DNA of 64,000 nucleotides from Solirubrobacterales bacterium (GCA_027449125.1 DAIDME010000106.1:19312-83311), one strand, 5' to 3'. Shown: positions 21,652 through 32,728, counted from the stretch's first letter. Translations and numbers: made by a program. The notes: generated by a model from the letters alone, not told the origin.

Positions 21652-21681
21652 CCGGGGGCGGTCGCGCTTGACCGCCCCCGG
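21652..21681. terminator. 12-bp perfect GC-rich stem-loop between convergent genes
   Basis: CCGGGGGCGGTC-gcgctt-GACCGCCCCCGG, directly after the aldehyde dehydrogenase stop; no U-tract. Confidence 0.7.
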
Positions 21682-21718: not shown

Positions 21719-22627
21719 TCACGGGTTGCAGTGCCCACAGCAGCCGGGGTCGGCGCAGCGCAGCCCATCGGCGCGAGGCCGGCGCTCCGAGTGCCCGCAG
21801 CGCACGCAGCCGTGCAGCTCGTGGGCAACGAGCTCCGTTGGCTGGGCGCAGTGGCAGCAGGGCAGGCCGCGCTGGCGCTCGAGCAGACCGTGGCCCGGCG
21901 CCCCGCAGGCCGGACACAGTCGCGCCAGACGCTCGCCGAGCTGTGCGGCCAGGGCCGCGATCTCGCCCATGCGGGTCGGATTGAGGTGGGCGCGCATGTC
22001 GGTCTCGAGCCGCGCCCGGCCGTCGCCGGAGGCCGCGGCGCACTGGCGGATCGCGCGCTCGAGCAGGCTGACGTCGGTGACGCCTTTGAACAGCGGTCCG
22101 TCGTGCGCGCCGTTGACCCGCACCACCACGGCGTGTGACGGAAAGCCCACCCGCTCCAGGAAGGCGAGCGTGCGCCGATCGCTCGCGCGGGTCTCGATGT
22201 GGGCGAAGTTGGTGCGCTCGCTCGAGCGTTGCTCGACCAGCTCGATCCCGAGCTCGTCGTCGATGAACGCGAGCAGCTCGATGCCGGCCGGTATGAGAAC
22301 CAGCTCGGGGTGCGGGCCGAAGCTGCCCTCCGAGGCGAGACCACGCGGCAGGTCGAGCGCCCGCATGCCAAGCCTCGCCTTGGCCAGCGCGGTATGCCTC
22401 GCTGTGCCCGGCCGGGGGACCTCACCGGTGAAGGTGCCGAGCGCGTCGGTGTCGACCGCCGCCACCACCACCCGCAATCCCGCCGTTGCCTGTAGCGCAG
22501 GTGCGATCAGCCGCTGCTTGCCGTGCATGGTCGCGAGCGCGACAGCCGCCCCGGCGTAGGGGTGCCGCGGCCCGCCGCCGGCCCTCAACGGTGCGCGCCT
22601 GCCGGCTCTGACCCCGCCGGGACCCAT
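21719..22627 (-). CDS. DUF6671-like protein with C-terminal Cys-rich zinc-ribbon-like region
   Basis: 'PYAGAAVALATMHGKQ...LGTFTGEVPRPG...KARLGM...GLASEGSFGPHPE'; C-terminal CPACG/CCHC/CVRCG motifs; overlaps the dabA-like gene by 43 bp. Confidence 0.65.
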   Translation of the reverse strand: MGPGGVRAGRRAPLRAGGGPRHPYAGAAVALATMHGKQRLIAPALQATAGLRVVVAAVDTDALGTFTGEVPRPGTARHTALAKARLGMRALDLPRGLASEGSFGPHPELVLIPAGIELLAFIDDELGIELVEQRSSERTNFAHIETRASDRRTLAFLERVGFPSHAVVVRVNGAHDGPLFKGVTDVSLLERAIRQCAAASGDGRARLETDMRAHLNPTRMGEIAALAAQLGERLARLCPACGAPGHGLLERQRGLPCCHCAQPTELVAHELHGCVRCGHSERRPRADGLRCADPGCCGHCNP

Positions 22628-25050
22628 GGCTCCCAGCGACCGTCGGGGGCGCGCAGCTGCCAGGGCTGGTCGGGCTGCTCGCGGGCGGCCAGCGCGATCC
22701 AGCTGCCGCCCACGTACTGGCCGAGCAGGTCGCTCGAGGCGATCAGCGCGTCGATCCGCTCGAGCGGGGCCTCGACCACGAACAACGGCCGCATGGGCTC
22801 GTGGAACAGGGTCTCGCCGTGGGCGACGGACTGCCAGGGCAGCCCCAGCATCAGGTCGCCACCTGAGCCCTGCAGTACACCGACATCACCGAGCACGTTG
22901 TGCAGGGTCTTGTCGCCGGCGCCGAGGATCTCCGGGTCGACGCTCGAGAAGTAGTACTGAGCGCTGATCCACTGGACCACCAGCCCGGGGGCGGTGAGGA
23001 TCGTCAAGAGCGCGCTTGCGTCCGGGTCGTTGCGCCACTCGTAGGAGTGCAGGAAGGTGCGGCAGCCGAGGTCGAGGCCGCTGACCGCGGCGCTGGGCGC
23101 GACGATGAAGGCGGCGTTGCGCGCGAGGCCCCACTCGGGCCTGACCTGCGCCCAGTCGCGCCCTCGCCGGCGCGGCGCGGCGCGGCCGGGCAGCAGCCGC
23201 GCCCGCTCCGCCGCAAGCGCCCTGCCAGCCGCCTCGAGGTCGGCCCGCACCGCGGTCAGATCGGCCTGCGGCATGACATCGATCAGGCTCACGGTGTCAC
23301 TGGCGGTATCGTGCTCGGCCGCCACGAAACGCGTGCTGTCCGGGACGTTCAGGCCGTGCTCGCGGAGCCCGGCGCGCACCTGCCGGTCGTTGAGGATCAT
23401 CGCCGCCAGCCGTGCGTTCTCGCCGCCGGCGTGGCCGCCGCAGGCGCCGCATTCGAGCGCCGCCCGGTAGGCGTTGTTGGTGACGGCACTCGTGTGTCCG
23501 ACGATCAGGATCGTGGGCGCGAAGCGCCCGGTGAGACCGATCGTATGGAGGGTCTGCGCGGCCCAGGCCAGCTGCTGCTCGAGCGCCATGCCAGAGCGCA
23601 GCTCGAGCGGCGGTCGGGCGGGTGAAGAGCCAGCGGTGAGCCGCGGTGCGAAGGTCCGCACCGCGGCTGCGGCGGCTGCCAGCCAGCCGCTCGCCTCAGC
23701 CATGCTGTAGGGGGCGAGCGGGCTTGCCTTGGCGCTTGTGTGTGCCGCCGCGAGCGCCTGCGAGCGCCGCCGCCCGGCGAGCGCGCCGGCGGCCGTGGCG
23801 TCCTCGACCTCGGCGAGCACCGCGGTGGGCTCGAGTGGCCCGGGCAGGAGCCGCGTGGCGCCGGCGCTGTGCAGGTGCTCAAACACGACTGGCAAACCGA
23901 AGAACCCCGCCATCCCGAAGGTCTCCCAGCGACTCGGAGCGAGCGACTCCAGCGCGCGCCGCAGACCCTCAGAACGGGCATCGATACAGAAGATCGCCTG
24001 GGCCGCAGGCCTGCTCTCAGCCTGTGGGGGGCGGCCGGCACGAGCCGGCCGCCCCCCACGCGCGAGCTTGGCCAGCAACCGGTCGCGGTAGTGCCACTCA
24101 TAGGCGTCCTGCCAGATCCAGGCGCGCTCGACAGCTGCCGTCGGCGCCGCTGCGGCGTCCATGGGGCGCTCGGCCCCGGCGAGCAGCCCGCCGAGCGCGA
24201 GGCCCCGCTCGCTTGCGGTGCGCCGCAGCGCCAGTGATTCGTAGCTGAGCCGCAGCGCGAGCAGATCGGGAGTCCCACCCGGCGCGTCACAGAGCTCGGG
24301 ATGCTCGTCGCGCCAGCGGAAGTGGGCGGCGAAGCCGGGCGTGCGGCAGAGCTGCTCGAGCAGTTCCCGCTCGATGCGGGCGTCGGGGATTTCGAGCACG
24401 TCGAGCGCCCAGGCGATCGCCGCGAGCGGCTCGTCCCTGAGCAGGCGGGCTGCGCCAGTCCCGGCCAGCCGCCGCAGCGCCGGATCGTGCGCTGCCAGCG
24501 CCCGCCAGGCGGCAAACATGCCGTGCTCCCGACCCGGCATCGACCAGGCGGCCTGTGAGGAGCCACAGAAGGCGGAGCACCACTTCAGCACCTCGTGGTC
24601 CACCGCCGGCGCCAGCTGCGTCGCAAGCGTCGCGTCCACGCGGCCGCAGGCACCCAGCAGCGGGCGCGCCGGCGACTCCTGCTCTGCCGCGTTCAGGAGC
24701 GCGTCCAGCAGCAGCTCCTCGGCCCGCTCGCCGCCGCCCAGATCGGGCAGGCGCCGGCGTGCCGCGGCGTGCAGGTCGGCCCGCGTGATCCGGCCGTCCG
24801 CGTACGCCTGCCGGTACTGCGTGAGCGTCATGTGACCGCGCAGCCCGAGCAGCTCCCCGCCCCAGGCCACGGCCGATTCGAAGCCGAGCTCCTGCACCCC
24901 GGCCAGCGGGTTGACCGCGATCAGGTCGGTGATCGGCCAGGCCACGGGCAGCTTTGCGGCGGCGCCGGCCACGGCATCCGCCACCGACTCGGCGCGCGCA
25001 TCCGTGCCCGGCGCGGTCGCCGCCGCCGCTCTCTGCGCGGCGGCGCTCAC
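22585..25050 (-). CDS. dabA: Probable inorganic carbon transporter subunit DabA (DUF2309)
   Basis: 'AIFCIDARSEGLRR' (C-x-D) and 'GHTSAVTNNAYRAALECGACGG' (His and Cys 15 residues apart) match the reported DabA zinc-ligand pattern; GTG start overlaps the dabB stop. Confidence 0.9.
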   Translation of the reverse strand: MSAAAQRAAAATAPGTDARAESVADAVAGAAAKLPVAWPITDLIAVNPLAGVQELGFESAVAWGGELLGLRGHMTLTQYRQAYADGRITRADLHAAARRRLPDLGGGERAEELLLDALLNAAEQESPARPLLGACGRVDATLATQLAPAVDHEVLKWCSAFCGSSQAAWSMPGREHGMFAAWRALAAHDPALRRLAGTGAARLLRDEPLAAIAWALDVLEIPDARIERELLEQLCRTPGFAAHFRWRDEHPELCDAPGGTPDLLALRLSYESLALRRTASERGLALGGLLAGAERPMDAAAAPTAAVERAWIWQDAYEWHYRDRLLAKLARGGRPARAGRPPQAESRPAAQAIFCIDARSEGLRRALESLAPSRWETFGMAGFFGLPVVFEHLHSAGATRLLPGPLEPTAVLAEVEDATAAGALAGRRRSQALAAAHTSAKASPLAPYSMAEASGWLAAAAAAVRTFAPRLTAGSSPARPPLELRSGMALEQQLAWAAQTLHTIGLTGRFAPTILIVGHTSAVTNNAYRAALECGACGGHAGGENARLAAMILNDRQVRAGLREHGLNVPDSTRFVAAEHDTASDTVSLIDVMPQADLTAVRADLEAAGRALAAERARLLPGRAAPRRRGRDWAQVRPEWGLARNAAFIVAPSAAVSGLDLGCRTFLHSYEWRNDPDASALLTILTAPGLVVQWISAQYYFSSVDPEILGAGDKTLHNVLGDVGVLQGSGGDLMLGLPWQSVAHGETLFHEPMRPLFVVEAPLERIDALIASSDLLGQYVGGSWIALAAREQPDQPWQLRAPDGRWEPWVPAGSEPAGAHR

Positions 25051-26642
25051 GCGGCCGCGCCCTGTTCGGTGAGACGTGCCGGCGCCTCCGCGGGCCGTCT
25101 GCGGAGGGTCGCCGCAGGCCACTGGCCCTGCCCCGTGACACGAGTGCTGCCGAGCTCGAGCAGACGCGGGTAGAGCCATCCGCGCAGGCCAGCGCCGGCG
25201 TCACCGGGCGCCCAGACCAGCACCTGCAGCGCGAGGAAGGCAATCGCGAGCGCGGGCAGCGTGAGCGCCAGCGGCAGCGTGTGCGAGCCTCGCGCTGCGA
25301 TTTGCAGGTAGGCCGTGAGCGCCGCCAGCAGGCAGGTGTAGGCGGCGAGGGCCAGGGCTCCCATCGCGAACACGGCGGGCGCTGGCAACAGCGCGCGGCG
25401 CAGCAGCGAGGCGCCGACCGTGAGCGAGGCCGCCCAGGCGAAGCTGAGCGGCACGACCGCACCCGGCTCGGCCAGCGCCGCGTGCGCGATGCTCGCGAGC
25501 GCCGCGAGCATCGCGCACCCCAGCGCCGCCGCGAGTGCGATCAGCATGGCCGGGGTCGGGCGGGCGGCGCGCGTCGGCGCGGGCGCGGCGCGTTTGGCCG
25601 CTTGCGCCGCCACGGCCCCGTCGGCGGCCAGGAAGGCGCTCGCCTTGTAGAGCCCGTGACCGATCAGATGCACGATCGCGGCGGCGTAGGCGCCCAGTCC
25701 GCAGGCCATCAGCATGAAGCCCATCTGGGCGCTAGTTGACTGTGCGAGGCCGCCCTTGACGTCGGGCCGCGTGAGGCTGAGCGTGCTGGCGTAGAGCGCC
25801 GTCACCAGCCCGATCGTCACAGCCAGCGCCGGGCCGGCCGGGCCATCGGCGAAGACCGGCGCGCAGCGCACCAGCAGGAAGCCGCCGGCGTTGACGAGGC
25901 CCGCGTGCAGCATCGCCGAGGCGGGAGTCGGCGTGGTGACACTCGCCGCAAGCCAGGACTGCCCGGGCAGCTGGGCCGCGCGTGCGGCCGCCGCCAGCGT
26001 CAGCAGCACCGCCACGCAGGGGGCGGCCGGTAGCGCGACGACCAGCAGCGGCAGCTTGGCGTGGCTGAGCGCCACGGCCACGTGGTGGAGGTGGCTGAGC
26101 GACGCGTCGCCGGCGCTGTGCCAGATCAGCGCCCCGGCGCAGAGCAGCGCCGCGTCGCCGGCCAGCAGCACGCGGGCGGTGCGGCGCAGGCCCTCGCGGG
26201 CGAGCGGCAGTTGGCGGCGCTGGCCCACGACCGCCAGCAGGCCAAGCGTGGTCAGCTCCCAGCCGAGCAGCAGCAGCACCAGATGCGCGGCCGTGACGGT
26301 CAGCGCCACGGCGCTCGTCACGAGCGCCGTCGTGCGGATCAGACGGGGTTGCTCGGAGGCGCCGGACAGGTTGCGCAGGGCGAAGGCCTGGACCAGCGCG
26401 CTGACCCCGAGCACCAGCACCAGCATGGCCGCCGACAGGCGCCCGGCGGTCAGCGACAGCGGACCGGCCACGGACGTGGCAGGGGGTCCGATCAGTGCGC
26501 ACACGACCAACGCGGCGGCGAGCGTGAGGGACAGTGAAACCCCCGCCAGGCAGATGCGACCGGTCAGCTCGCTCCGGCGCGTGAGGAGCTCCGCCAGCAC
26601 GAGGCTCAGCGCGGGCAGCATCACGACCGCCCAGACCATCAT
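25047..26642 (-). CDS. dabB: Proton-conducting membrane subunit (NuoL/DabB-like)
   Basis: Antiporter-like 'SWLAASVTTPTPASAMLHAGLVNAGGFLLVRCAPVF', 'TSAQMGFMLMACGLGAYAAAIVHLIGHGLYKASAFL'; adjacent to dabA. Confidence 0.88.
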   Translation of the reverse strand: MMVWAVVMLPALSLVLAELLTRRSELTGRICLAGVSLSLTLAAALVVCALIGPPATSVAGPLSLTAGRLSAAMLVLVLGVSALVQAFALRNLSGASEQPRLIRTTALVTSAVALTVTAAHLVLLLLGWELTTLGLLAVVGQRRQLPLAREGLRRTARVLLAGDAALLCAGALIWHSAGDASLSHLHHVAVALSHAKLPLLVVALPAAPCVAVLLTLAAAARAAQLPGQSWLAASVTTPTPASAMLHAGLVNAGGFLLVRCAPVFADGPAGPALAVTIGLVTALYASTLSLTRPDVKGGLAQSTSAQMGFMLMACGLGAYAAAIVHLIGHGLYKASAFLAADGAVAAQAAKRAAPAPTRAARPTPAMLIALAAALGCAMLAALASIAHAALAEPGAVVPLSFAWAASLTVGASLLRRALLPAPAVFAMGALALAAYTCLLAALTAYLQIAARGSHTLPLALTLPALAIAFLALQVLVWAPGDAGAGLRGWLYPRLLELGSTRVTGQGQWPAATLRRRPAEAPARLTEQGAAA

Positions 26643-26692
26643 CTGTCCACCCCTGCGACGCTGCGCGGATCCGCACCCATGCTGAACTCCTT

Positions 26693-26738
26693 TTAGCGAA
26701 TTACAATATCGGAGACCAGATTAGCGAATTTCAATTCG
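26693..26738. promoter_or_regulatory. Putative operator of the dab operon / divergent regulator
   Basis: ttagcgaattacaat (26693-26707) and ttagcgaatttcaat (26721-26735), one mismatch, 28 bp apart; perfect inverted repeat CGAATT-tc-AATTCG at 26725-26738. Confidence 0.65.
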
Positions 26739-26782
26739 TATGTCAACTTGCCGCTGTCGCACATTTGCCCTAGCCTTCGCGC

Positions 26783-27070
26783 GTGGGCGAGTGGACCTTC
26801 CTGACCAACCACGCGCATGTGCTGATGTGTGTCGCGCGTGATCCGGGCGTGCGGCTGCGCGAGGTGGCGGACGCCGTGGGCATAACCGAGCGCGCGGCCC
26901 AGAAGATCGTTGCCGACCTGGTCGCGGCGGGCTACCTGGAACGGCAGCGTGCCGGCCGGCGCAACCACTACGAGCTCAAGCGCGACATGCCGCTGCGCCA
27001 CCCGATGGACCGTGAGCACCAGATCGGCGAGATCCTGCGCGTCTTCTCTGCGATCGAGCCGGAGCCCTAG
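26783..27070 (+). CDS. Winged-helix (MarR-like) transcriptional regulator
   Basis: 'VRLREVADAVGITERAAQKIVADLVAAGYLERQRAGRRNHYEL'; divergent from dabB. Confidence 0.8.
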   Translation: MGEWTFLTNHAHVLMCVARDPGVRLREVADAVGITERAAQKIVADLVAAGYLERQRAGRRNHYELKRDMPLRHPMDREHQIGEILRVFSAIEPEP

Positions 27071-29060: not shown

Positions 29061-30125
29061 GTGGTCCAGCGGCTGGCCGTGCTGACAGCGGCACGACTCG
29101 TGCGGGTGGCGGGCGACGCGCAGTCAAGCGGCGGCAGGCCGGCATCGGTGTTCGCCTTCAACGAGGGGGCCGGCCTGGTCGTGGTCGGCGACCTGGGGCA
29201 GACGGGCTGCCACCTGGCGGTCTGCGACCTGGGCGCCCGGCCACTTGCCGAACACACCGCGCCGCTGCAGATCGAGCAGGGGCCTGAGGTCGTGATCAGC
29301 TGGGCCAAGGCGCGCTTCGCCGAGCTGCTTGCCGAGCTGGGACGTGGCTGGCAGGACGTGCTGGGTGTCGGGATCGGACTGCCCGGCCCCGTCGACTTCG
29401 ACACCGGCCGCCCGGTCAGCCCACCGGCGATGCCCGCCTGGGATGGGGTCGACGTGCCCGCCATGTTCGCCGACGTCACCGACCGGCCGGTCCTGGTTGA
29501 CAACGACGCGCGCATCATGGCGCTCGGTGAGCACCGCACCGCGAGGCGCGGCGACCGTCACATGATCTTCGTGAAGCTCGGCTCCGGCATCGGGGCGGGG
29601 CTGATCTCCTACGGCGAGGTCCTGCGCGGCGAGCGCGGGGCGGCGGGAGACATCGGCCACATCGTCGTCGACCCGGAGGCATCGGAAGTCTGCCGCTGCG
29701 GCAACGTCGGGTGCCTCGACGCGGTCGCCGGCGGCTGGGCGATAGCCCGGCGGCTGGGCGATCTGGCGCCGACCCCGCCGGACGTGGTGAGACTGGCGCG
29801 CGACGGCCAGCCGGAGGCGATGGCCGAGGTGAGGCGCAGCGGCCGGCTGGTGGGCGCCGCCGTGGCCAACGCCGTGAACCTGCTCAACCCGACCTCAGTG
29901 GTGATCGGCGGCAAGCTCGCCGAGGCTGACGAGCAGGTCTTTGCAGCCGTGCGCGAGGCGATCTACCGGCACGCCACGCCGGTGGCCTCGCGCCACCTGG
30001 AGATCGCGCTCACCGAGCTCTGGCACATGGCCGGCGTGATCGGCGCGGCGCACATGGTGATCGACCACGTGCTGGAGCCCGAGCGCGTGGGCGCCCTCGT
30101 CGAGCGCCGTCTGCGGGCCGCCTGA
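29061..30125 (+). CDS. ROK family transcriptional regulator/kinase-like protein; N-terminus probably extends upstream
   Basis: 'VDNDARIMALGEHR', 'GSGIGAGLI', 'GDIGHIVVDPEASEVCRCGNVGCLDAVAGG'; HTH coding continues upstream ('ALIRSGAASTRNDLAERLGVARST') without a canonical start. Confidence 0.88.
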   Translation: MVQRLAVLTAARLVRVAGDAQSSGGRPASVFAFNEGAGLVVVGDLGQTGCHLAVCDLGARPLAEHTAPLQIEQGPEVVISWAKARFAELLAELGRGWQDVLGVGIGLPGPVDFDTGRPVSPPAMPAWDGVDVPAMFADVTDRPVLVDNDARIMALGEHRTARRGDRHMIFVKLGSGIGAGLISYGEVLRGERGAAGDIGHIVVDPEASEVCRCGNVGCLDAVAGGWAIARRLGDLAPTPPDVVRLARDGQPEAMAEVRRSGRLVGAAVANAVNLLNPTSVVIGGKLAEADEQVFAAVREAIYRHATPVASRHLEIALTELWHMAGVIGAAHMVIDHVLEPERVGALVERRLRAA

Positions 30126-30155
30126 GCGGCGGTCAGGGTGCCCGCGGGGCGTCAG

Positions 30156-30785
30156 TCAGCCGTTGGCAGCCGCCGCCTGTGCGGCCAGGGCGGTGATCCT
30201 CGGCCAGTCGCCGGCGTCGATCAGCTCGGCCGTGACCATCCAGGAGCCACCGATGCAGATGACGTTCGGCAGCGCGAGGTAAGCGCCGGCGCGGTCCCGA
30301 TCGATGCCACCGGTCGGGCAGAAGCTGACCTGCGGGAACGGCCCGGCCAACGCCCGGATCGCCTCGACCCCGCCGCTCGCCTGCGCCGGGAAGAACTTCA
30401 TCGTGGTGATCCCGCGCTCCAGCAGCCGCAGGACCTCGCTCGCGGTCACCGCCCCCGGCAGGAAGGCGCCGCCGGCTTCCGCGGCGGCCGCCGCCAGCGC
30501 CTCCGTGCAGCCCGGCGAGACGATGAACCGCGCGCCCGCAGCGCGCGCCGCTCGCAGCTGCGCGGGCGTGTTGACCGTGCCCGCCCCAACCACGGCTTGC
30601 GGAAGCTCAGCCGCGATGCGCCTGATCGCCTCGATCCCCGCCTCGGTCCGCAGCGTCACCTCCAGAACAGGCAGGCCGCCTGCCACCAGCGCACGCGCCA
30701 ACGGCACGGCGCTACCTGCATCGGCGATGGTGATCACCGGTACGACGCGGGTCGTACCGAGCAACTCCACGAAACTCTCGCTCAC
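30156..30785 (-). CDS. eda: 2-dehydro-3-deoxy-phosphogluconate (KDPG) aldolase
   Basis: 'RVVPVITIADAGSAVPLARALVAGGLPVLEVTLRTEAGIEAIR', 'MKFFPAQASGGVEAIRAL', 'FCPTGGI'. Confidence 0.93.
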   Translation of the reverse strand: MSESFVELLGTTRVVPVITIADAGSAVPLARALVAGGLPVLEVTLRTEAGIEAIRRIAAELPQAVVGAGTVNTPAQLRAARAAGARFIVSPGCTEALAAAAAEAGGAFLPGAVTASEVLRLLERGITTMKFFPAQASGGVEAIRALAGPFPQVSFCPTGGIDRDRAGAYLALPNVICIGGSWMVTAELIDAGDWPRITALAAQAAAANG

Positions 30786-30817
30786 AGGGTGCTCCGCTTT
30801 CAGTTCGGGCGCACCGG

Positions 30818-32728
30818 TCAGACCTCCACGAGCTCGCGGATGTCCACTCTGGCCGACGCGTCCGGATAGGGTTCCTGCAGGGTAGTGAAGACGCTCGCGC
30901 CCGTGTCCGCACTGGAGACGGACATCCGGAAGAGGCTGAACAGCTCACGCCCGAGGCCCTCCTCACCGGCGCGCGGCGCCGGCACGGGCTCGCGCGACGC
31001 GAGGTCGACACCCAGAACGTCCAGCCGGCCCGAGCGCGCGTCCAGCCGGATGCGGTCACCATCGCGCAGGCGCGCCAGGGGCCCGCCGCAGGCCGCCTCC
31101 GGAGTGCAGTGGATTGCCGCGGCCACCTTCCCGGAGGCCCCTGACATACGACCGTCCGTCACGAGCGCCACGCGCAGGCCGCGACCCTGCATGACGCCGA
31201 GTGCCGGCGTCAGGCGATGGAGCTCGGGCATGCCGTTGGCGCGCGGTCCCTGGAAGCGGACGACCACGACCGCGTCCTCGTCGAGCGTGCCCGCGGCGAA
31301 TGCGTCCAGGAAGGCCTGCTGGTCGTCGAACACACGGGCGGGCGCCTCGATCACGCGCTGCTCCGCGCTCACCGCCGAGACTTTGATCACGGCCCGCCCG
31401 AGCGTGCCCTCGATCACGCGGATGCCGCCGTCACGCGCGAAGGGCTCATCGGCGGCGCGCAGCACCGCAGGGTCGACCTGACCCGCAGGCGACGCCGGCA
31501 GCCAGCGCAGCTCACCGCCGACCAGCTCCGGCGCCTGCGTGTAGCGGCTCAGACCGTGGCCGGCGACGGTGGGCACGTCCTCGTGCAGCAACCCGGCATC
31601 GAGCAGCGCCGAGATCAGGCTGGCGGTTCCACCGGCCCGCTGGAAGTCGTTGATGTCCGCCTTGCCGTTCGGGTAGATGCGGGCGAGCAGCGGCACCAGG
31701 CCGGAGAGCTCGGCGAAGTCCTGCCAGGTGAGGGCGATGCCGGCTGCGGCGGCCATGGCAACCAGGTGCATGGTGTGGTTCGTCGAGCCGCCGGTCGCAA
31801 GCAGCGCCACCACTGCGTTCACGATCGCACGCTCGTCGACGATCCGACCAACCGGCGCATGTTCCTCGGGGTCGGCGAGCGCGACGATCCGGCGGCCCGC
31901 CGCCTGCGTCAGCGAGCGCCGCAACGCGGTCCCGGAGGCGACGAAGCTGGCGCCCGGCAGATGCAGTCCCAGGGCCTCCATCAGCAGCTGGTTGGTGTTG
32001 GCCGTCCCGTAGAAGGTGCAGGTTCCGGGTGCGTGATAGGAGCGCATCTCCGTATCGAGCAACGCCGCGGCGCCGACCTCGCCCCGTGCGTGGCGTTCGC
32101 GCGCGCTCGCCTTTTCGGCGTTCGGCATCCCCGACGGCATCGGCCCGCCCGGGACGAAGATGCACGGCAGGTGCCCGAAGCTGAGCGCGCCGATCACCAG
32201 GCCCGGGACGATCTTGTCGCAGACGCCGAGCAGCAGCGCGGCGTCGAACATGTCGTGCGCCAGGGCCACAGCGGTCGCCATCGCCACCACATCCCGGCTG
32301 AACAGTGACAGCTCCATGCCCTCGCGCCCCTGGGTGATGCCATCACACATCGCCGGCACGCCGCCCGCGAACTGGGCGACGCCGCCCGCGCGCAGGATCT
32401 CCTTCTTGAGCAGCGCCGGATAGCGGTCAAGCGGCTGGTGCGCCGAGAGCATGTCGTTGTAGGCGGATACGATCGCGACGTTGGGCACCTCACGCCGAGC
32501 GAGCAGCTCCTTTTCGTCGGCGCCGCAGGCTGCAACTCCGTGCGCGAGGTTCGCGCAGCCTGAGCGTCCCCGTGGGCGACCGTGGAGGCGGTCCTGCTCG
32601 ATGCGGCGGTCAATGCGGTCGAGGTATGCCCGCCGGCTCTCACGGCTGCGGCGAGCGATCCGGTCGGTGACCTCGGCTACCGCCAGGTGGACGTCACGGG
32701 AGGGTCGGGCTGTTGGCCGGTTGTGCAT
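30818..32728 (-). CDS. edd: Phosphogluconate dehydratase (IlvD/Edd family)
   Basis: 'CDKIVPGLVIGALSFGHLPCIFVPGGPM', 'GTCTFYGTANTNQLLMEALGLHLPG', 'LVTDGRMSGASGKVAAAIH'; adjacent to eda. Confidence 0.93.
   Translation of the reverse strand: MHNRPTARPSRDVHLAVAEVTDRIARRSRESRRAYLDRIDRRIEQDRLHGRPRGRSGCANLAHGVAACGADEKELLARREVPNVAIVSAYNDMLSAHQPLDRYPALLKKEILRAGGVAQFAGGVPAMCDGITQGREGMELSLFSRDVVAMATAVALAHDMFDAALLLGVCDKIVPGLVIGALSFGHLPCIFVPGGPMPSGMPNAEKASARERHARGEVGAAALLDTEMRSYHAPGTCTFYGTANTNQLLMEALGLHLPGASFVASGTALRRSLTQAAGRRIVALADPEEHAPVGRIVDERAIVNAVVALLATGGSTNHTMHLVAMAAAAGIALTWQDFAELSGLVPLLARIYPNGKADINDFQRAGGTASLISALLDAGLLHEDVPTVAGHGLSRYTQAPELVGGELRWLPASPAGQVDPAVLRAADEPFARDGGIRVIEGTLGRAVIKVSAVSAEQRVIEAPARVFDDQQAFLDAFAAGTLDEDAVVVVRFQGPRANGMPELHRLTPALGVMQGRGLRVALVTDGRMSGASGKVAAAIHCTPEAACGGPLARLRDGDRIRLDARSGRLDVLGVDLASREPVPAPRAGEEGLGRELFSLFRMSVSSADTGASVFTTLQEPYPDASARVDIRELVEV

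Follow-up and report, generated by a model that had tools for sequence, protein, structure and literature searches.

DUF6671 as a probable member of a modular bicarbonate-starvation island at a DabAB carbon-uptake locus

The 64,000-nucleotide stretch of Solirubrobacterales bacterium (GCA_027449125.1 DAIDME010000106.1:19312-83311), called the window here and used whole for all positions, carries on its minus strand dabB, for a proton-conducting membrane subunit of the NuoL/Mrp type (25047-26642; PF00361, 5.3e-34), dabA, for a beta-carbonic-anhydrase-like catalytic subunit (22585-25050; PF10070 over its full length, 2.4e-218), and a gene of the DUF6671 family (21719-22627; PF20376, 8.4e-45, conserved part from ~22561). 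A 95-amino-acid winged-helix regulator with a MarR/IclR-type helix-turn-helix diverges on the plus strand (26783-27070; PF12802, 2.9e-8). What does DUF6671, a family of which no mention was found in the literature searched, do beside a carbon pump? A sequence-only reading of this DNA had located the same four genes, all of which have Pfam matches at those positions, and had proposed DUF6671 as a third component of the pump; a hidden Markov model search of 21719-22627 upheld the family assignment (153.7 bits against a cut-off of 23.8). The explanation favored here, and considered moderately probable, is that the locus exemplifies a modular bicarbonate-starvation (low-CO2) island, with DUF6671 as a separate nucleotide-pyrophosphatase-like member. 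It rests on evidence from gene neighborhood, co-occurrence, a tree and a shared operator.

DUF6671 is tied to inorganic-carbon uptake. Among 61 relatives, it occurs in four genomes, all four with DabA, which is itself present in 6 of the 61. In a sample of the phylum (297 genomes), DabA was found in 5 of 7 DUF6671 genomes versus 15 of 290 others (p 1.6e-5, or 1.7e-4 once the genome of the window is left out), and in an alpha-proteobacterial sample (337 genomes) in 7 of 13 versus 35 of 324 (p 2.8e-4, or 1.2e-3 on leaving out the centre genome), all these p-values still including relatedness between genomes. The two genes adjoin in several genomes of these samples. The sequence-only reading had held that its proposal would fall if DUF6671 were rarely next to dabA; it is not refuted on that ground, because there is significant co-occurrence and DabA lies near DUF6671 at about 30 of 80 surveyed loci.

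The 80 loci were taken from a scan of named genomes and belong to Actinomycetota, Bacillota, Chloroflexota, Cyanobacteria, several proteobacterial classes and others; neighboring open reading frames (ORFs) were clustered without preselected families, and the clusters were named by NCBIfam and Pfam. Clustering returned four kinds of uptake system: DabAB, SbtA with the PII-like SbtB, CmpABCD-like ABC transporters and SulP. Defined probes were then used for counts of genes within 10 kb of DUF6671, and DabA was recounted with DabA probes because the label "Dab" on long ORFs can mean other NuoL/Mrp proteins. Uptake genes were represented by DabA at 30 loci, SbtA at 11, CmpA at seven and SulP at two; the winged-helix regulator was counted at 20, isocitrate dehydrogenase at 17, PyrC at 11, TsaC at nine, IlvD at seven, MurF at six, and FolC, PurE and PurK at five each. 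Theme genes occurred at 3 of 29 control regions, taken from the genomes of these loci, from two plasmids of the set and from the remainder of the window. Against these controls, the 80-locus set gave a Fisher p of 1e-11; survey loci with the window excluded had theme genes at 11 of 18 (p 4e-4); and in the plasmid set, which comprises every DUF6671 record of its collection at E <= 1e-3, each of the 12 has an uptake system or CO2-linked enzyme (p 6e-8).

The neighbors other than pumps fall into two groups. TsaC, PurE, PurK, an acyl-CoA carboxylase-type carboxyltransferase and isocitrate dehydrogenase use or release CO2 or bicarbonate, while PyrC, IlvD, FolC and the Mur ligases come from carbamylated-lysine families. 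PyrC, FolC and Mur ligases are families with a carbamylated lysine; for the IlvD family, lysine carbamylation has been shown (PMC5770437). Almost every genome checked has further copies of TsaC and IlvD besides those in the island; in the genome of L092 a single TsaC was found. The idea that island paralogs had become CO2-independent by losing this lysine was rejected: the island IlvDs retain the lysine of their CDK motif, PyrC and motif-matched FolC keep theirs, and the island copies are therefore not obviously CO2-independent. Also set aside were "IlvD" matches lying right of the operon in the window, which are the window's own edd-like dehydratase. In Synechococcus/Cyanobium, DUF6671 is located with cmp, sbtA/sbtB and flv, which are low-CO2-induced genes. 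The conjugative plasmid pSDM007 of Pseudomonas hygromyciniae (L049) has SbtA, TerC, PyrC, IlvD, TsaC, CysD and a Mur ligase around DUF6671, with mercury and aminoglycoside resistance genes elsewhere; several of its island genes are absent from the PLSDB gene table. At four loci of Melainabacteria/Obscuribacter type (L088, L099, L131 and the 5' end of L126), Mur-ligase-related proteins of ~300 amino acids, apparently truncated relative to the 460-amino-acid members elsewhere, precede DabB-DabA-DUF6671. A phage or defence origin of DUF6671 was dismissed, as no match was found in phages, PADLOC or PHROGs.

Is DUF6671 then a third functional part of DabAB, one that assembles DabA, loads it with zinc or regulates it? 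The co-occurrence given above speaks for it, as does the overlap of dabA and DUF6671, seen in the window and on plasmids of Aminobacter, Fuscovulum and Ideonella. Against it, many loci have DUF6671 adjoining SbtA, Cmp or SulP in the absence of DabA; DUF6671 is missing from 35 of 42 alpha-proteobacterial and 15 of 20 same-phylum genomes that have DabA; and the cryo-electron microscopy (cryo-EM) structure of the DAB2 complex has two subunits only, a DabA-DabB heterodimer (PMC13144422). The uptake type beside DUF6671 (DabAB, SbtA, CmpABCD or SulP) was also mapped on a tree built from 98 DUF6671 proteins, where it changes at least 28 times against a theoretical minimum of four; on well supported branches alone there are at least four changes for DabA and at least five for SbtA. 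DUF6671 therefore tracks the theme rather than a single pump. With DUF6671 not confined to DabAB, the third-subunit proposal was given up as the principal interpretation on co-occurrence, neighborhood counts and tree, and is now thought unlikely. The best explanation is that DUF6671 is a separate island member, independent of transporter type, and no pump subunit.

A second recurrent member is the regulator. In a tblastn survey, homologs of the window regulator were found at many DUF6671/inorganic-carbon loci, including SbtA-type Arthrobacter plasmids, Bacillota, Chloroflexota and Gammaproteobacteria. A de novo motif search of 33 dereplicated regions upstream of homologous regulators yielded the palindrome ACACGA-N(6-8)-TCGTGT, with an expectation-maximization score of 301 against a mean of 114 and a maximum of 130 in 12 shuffled sets. 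In the window, TACGAATTGAAATTCGC (26740-26724) coincides with the 17-bp spacer that separates TTGACA from TAATCT in the dabB promoter (26718-26746, minus strand). A position weight matrix trained with the window left out places this site second in the 64 kb, the matrix being AT-biased in high-GC DNA; its top match (32739) is probably an artefact. The promoter/operator layout is the same in two same-genus genomes, G021 and G013, the latter without DUF6671. A palindrome that fills the spacer has the geometry of a repressor site and is a predicted operator, and the regulator family recurs at such loci with this common palindrome. The sequence-only reading was right that a divergent regulator is present, but its accessory-only status did not hold, as it is a recurrent second island member with its own predicted operator. 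The most constant member of the island is DUF6671, joined in many phyla by the winged-helix regulator.

What DUF6671 does was approached from its residues and predicted fold. PF20376 is the sole family matched by all 81 DUF6671 members, over which H13, K15, K61, E78, E95, D188, R190, R197 and eight cysteines are invariant. K15, K61, E78, E95, D188, R190 and R197 look catalytic, and the cysteines could form two C-terminal Cys4 zinc ribbons behind a predicted ITPase/Maf/HAM1/YjjX-like domain. AlphaFold (AF2) models of two different members reached a predicted local distance difference test score (pLDDT) of 95.5 and 94.5. For both, the best Foldseek match in PDB was E. coli YjjX, with HAM1, Maf and related nucleoside triphosphate (NTP) pyrophosphatases prominent next, at probability 1.00. 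An hhalign comparison with RdgB (probability 40%) places T-x-H-x-K on the phosphate-binding motif and A-x-x-K-A on the KA motif. A DUF6671-YjjX sequence alignment was not significant, and a sequence search of PDB with the DUF6671 profile gave weak zinc-ribbon noise only. Two results count against the pyrophosphatase assignment: the fold likeness is moderate (E ~1e-3; TM-score of the target 0.45-0.48), and no Maf, Ham1 or NTPase Pfam model is among the matches listed (25 families) for the 81 members. From the models, a nucleotide-pyrophosphatase-like fold is likely; a corresponding activity can be put forward more tentatively, at somewhat less than even chances. The suggestion that DUF6671 is a metal-handling protein gained no support, since its cysteines resemble structural zinc ribbons on a nucleotide-pyrophosphatase-like domain.

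The same predicted ITPase-like fold could instead belong to a nucleotide-binding sensor or a second-messenger hydrolase for CO2 status rather than a house-cleaning enzyme. The location of DUF6671 beside SbtB, a PII protein, in part of the cyanobacterial loci and its independence of transporter type fit such a sensor, but the invariant polar residues suggest catalysis and winged-helix or LysR proteins already serve regulation, so this role seems improbable.

The pump itself is an intact, ordinary representative of an already known family. Active-site residues of DabA2 according to cryo-EM are Cys351, Asp353, Arg355, His524, Cys539, His585 and Asp590 (PMC13144422). Aligned to Halothiobacillus neapolitanus DabA2 (PDB 9rd0; E 1.5e-113), the window DabA keeps C351, H524 and C539 as zinc ligands along with the D353/R355 dyad and the H585/D590 pair; its zinc-site His and Cys are 15 residues apart, as the sequence-only reading had it. 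The host genome (3.17 Mb, 92% complete) has DabA in single copy, one weak beta-carbonic-anhydrase-like match and no PF00016 match anywhere, which extends the earlier remark that the window has no RuBisCO to the whole of this 92%-complete genome. The five same-genus genomes with RuBisCO are all without DabA and without DUF6671. As to the earlier idea of anaplerotic supply, bicarbonate for ordinary carboxylations is plausible because the host has no detectable RuBisCO. In several same-phylum genomes (L019-L023, L026, L030-L032), DabA lies within open frames of ~1300 amino acids, consistent with a DabB-DabA fusion. Such a fusion is reportedly known from Acidimicrobium.

Taken as an island, the locus might work as follows. 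At low CO2, the regulator would leave the predicted operator between the dabB -35 and -10; DabB would use the proton-motive force to drive one-way hydration of CO2 by DabA; and the resulting bicarbonate would go to essential carboxylations, given that no RuBisCO was found. DUF6671, most likely nucleotide-pyrophosphatase-like with its predicted ITPase/Maf/HAM1 fold and double zinc ribbon, would handle a nucleotide-side effect of bicarbonate shortage; as a guess, it may clear abnormal nucleotides that accumulate when the bicarbonate-dependent steps of purine and pyrimidine synthesis stall.

Several observations weigh against the island. The opening step above, low-CO2 induction included, is inferred, and the proportions in the 80 loci are biased because these loci are best matches to a DabA-linked query; 15 of them have no theme gene by probe search, although at one or more of the 15 (L125) SbtA is present by clustering. 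In an even cyanobacterial sample with DUF6671 in 39 of 194 genomes, 17 of 20 inspected loci lack a theme gene and three have an uptake system, and at 7 of the 20 (L158-L177) DUF6671 stands beside a membrane protein of ~194 amino acids that is HemJ-like by eye; in cyanobacteria, its role is therefore either wider or different, or the genes are scattered. CysD and TerC recur with no obvious role in CO2 (to our knowledge, none is known for CysD), and BioA-like neighbors also fall outside the theme. A CysD-like PP-loop protein adjoins DUF6671 at L046, L053, L091, L092, L101, L126 and L189, and no cysN was noticed near these genes.

TerC, counted at 9 of 80 loci and 6 of 12 plasmid loci, leads to a further explanation: that the island is a metal-stress module for zinc, manganese or Fe-S, with carbon uptake incidental. 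In its favor are the zinc-binding proteins (PyrC, carbonic anhydrase, DabA and DUF6671), the Fe-S cluster of IlvD and the metal-handling TerC, as well as the Cys-rich nature of DUF6671 and the extra copies of metalloenzymes. Such a module leaves SbtA, SbtB, Cmp, SulP, TsaC, PurE/PurK, acyl-CoA carboxylase, isocitrate dehydrogenase and Mur ligase unaccounted for, and the regulator, a winged helix of MarR/IclR type, does not belong to Fur/Zur; the module is regarded as a doubtful alternative to the bicarbonate-starvation island.

A wider form of the island explanation, offered as a possibility rather less likely than the island itself, is that a bicarbonate-starvation regulon, comparable to those for zinc starvation, is common to bacteria of many phyla and is made up of an exchangeable pump, a winged-helix or LysR regulator of its own with a conserved operator, spare enzymes and DUF6671 as signature enzyme. 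The spare copies would then be the enzymes failing first at low CO2, including the carboxylated-lysine PyrC, IlvD, FolC and Mur ligases, and DUF6671 would act on a nucleotide made only under bicarbonate stress. Carbon-concentrating systems have been studied chiefly in autotrophs. If true, a cross-phylum low-CO2 toolkit of heterotrophs, partly on conjugative plasmids, would explain DabAB and SbtA without RuBisCO and reveal the functions most sensitive to bicarbonate shortage, carbamylated-lysine enzymes among them. DUF6671 probably marks a toolkit for CO2 scarcity not described before, and an unstudied family gains a testable role.

Within the window, dabB, dabA and DUF6671 form a single run of overlapping genes: as the sequence-only reading had noted and the sequence confirms, the GTG start of dabA overlaps the dabB TGA, and dabA and DUF6671 overlap by 43 bp. 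The order dabB-dabA-DUF6671 is unchanged in the same-genus genomes G012 and G021. Upstream of dabB, a 13-codon leader ORF, MGADPRSVAGVDR (26639-26680, minus strand), has an AGGAG ribosome site and a TGA overlapping the dabB ATG; 13-codon leaders of differing sequence stand at the equivalent place in G012 and G021 (L198, L199), and their retention suggests translational coupling or a leader peptide. The stem-loop at 21652-21681, also foreseen, has a perfect 12-bp stem (z -3.8 for the stretch) between convergent gene ends and is terminator-like without a T-run. At 29061-32728, a ROK-family protein, a KDPG-aldolase-like ORF and an edd/IlvD-family dehydratase make up a probable Entner-Doudoroff cluster without relation to the finding.

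Compared with known systems, the locus shares with DAB2/MpsAB, the DabA-DabB pump of vectorial CO2 hydration, the same two subunits with every active-site residue present; unlike it, the window comes from a host without detectable RuBisCO and has the overlapping third gene DUF6671 and a divergent winged-helix regulator with a predicted operator inside the promoter spacer. The YjjX, HAM1 (RdgB) and Maf pyrophosphatases are the top Foldseek matches of both DUF6671 models, and two DUF6671 motifs align tentatively to RdgB; in contrast to them, DUF6671 has the putative C-terminal eight-Cys double zinc ribbon, T-x-H-x-K in place of T-x-N-x-x-K, and no match to their Pfam models among those listed. 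The cyanobacterial low-CO2 gene set (cmpABCD, sbtAB, flv) includes DUF6671 in Synechococcus/Cyanobium, whereas the window genome is without detected RuBisCO and has DabAB as its uptake system. The Zur regulon, which provides spare enzyme copies under zinc starvation, likewise brings spare essential enzymes and a transporter under one regulator family; the theme of the island is CO2/bicarbonate or carbamylated lysine instead of zinc, and its regulator lies outside the Fur family.

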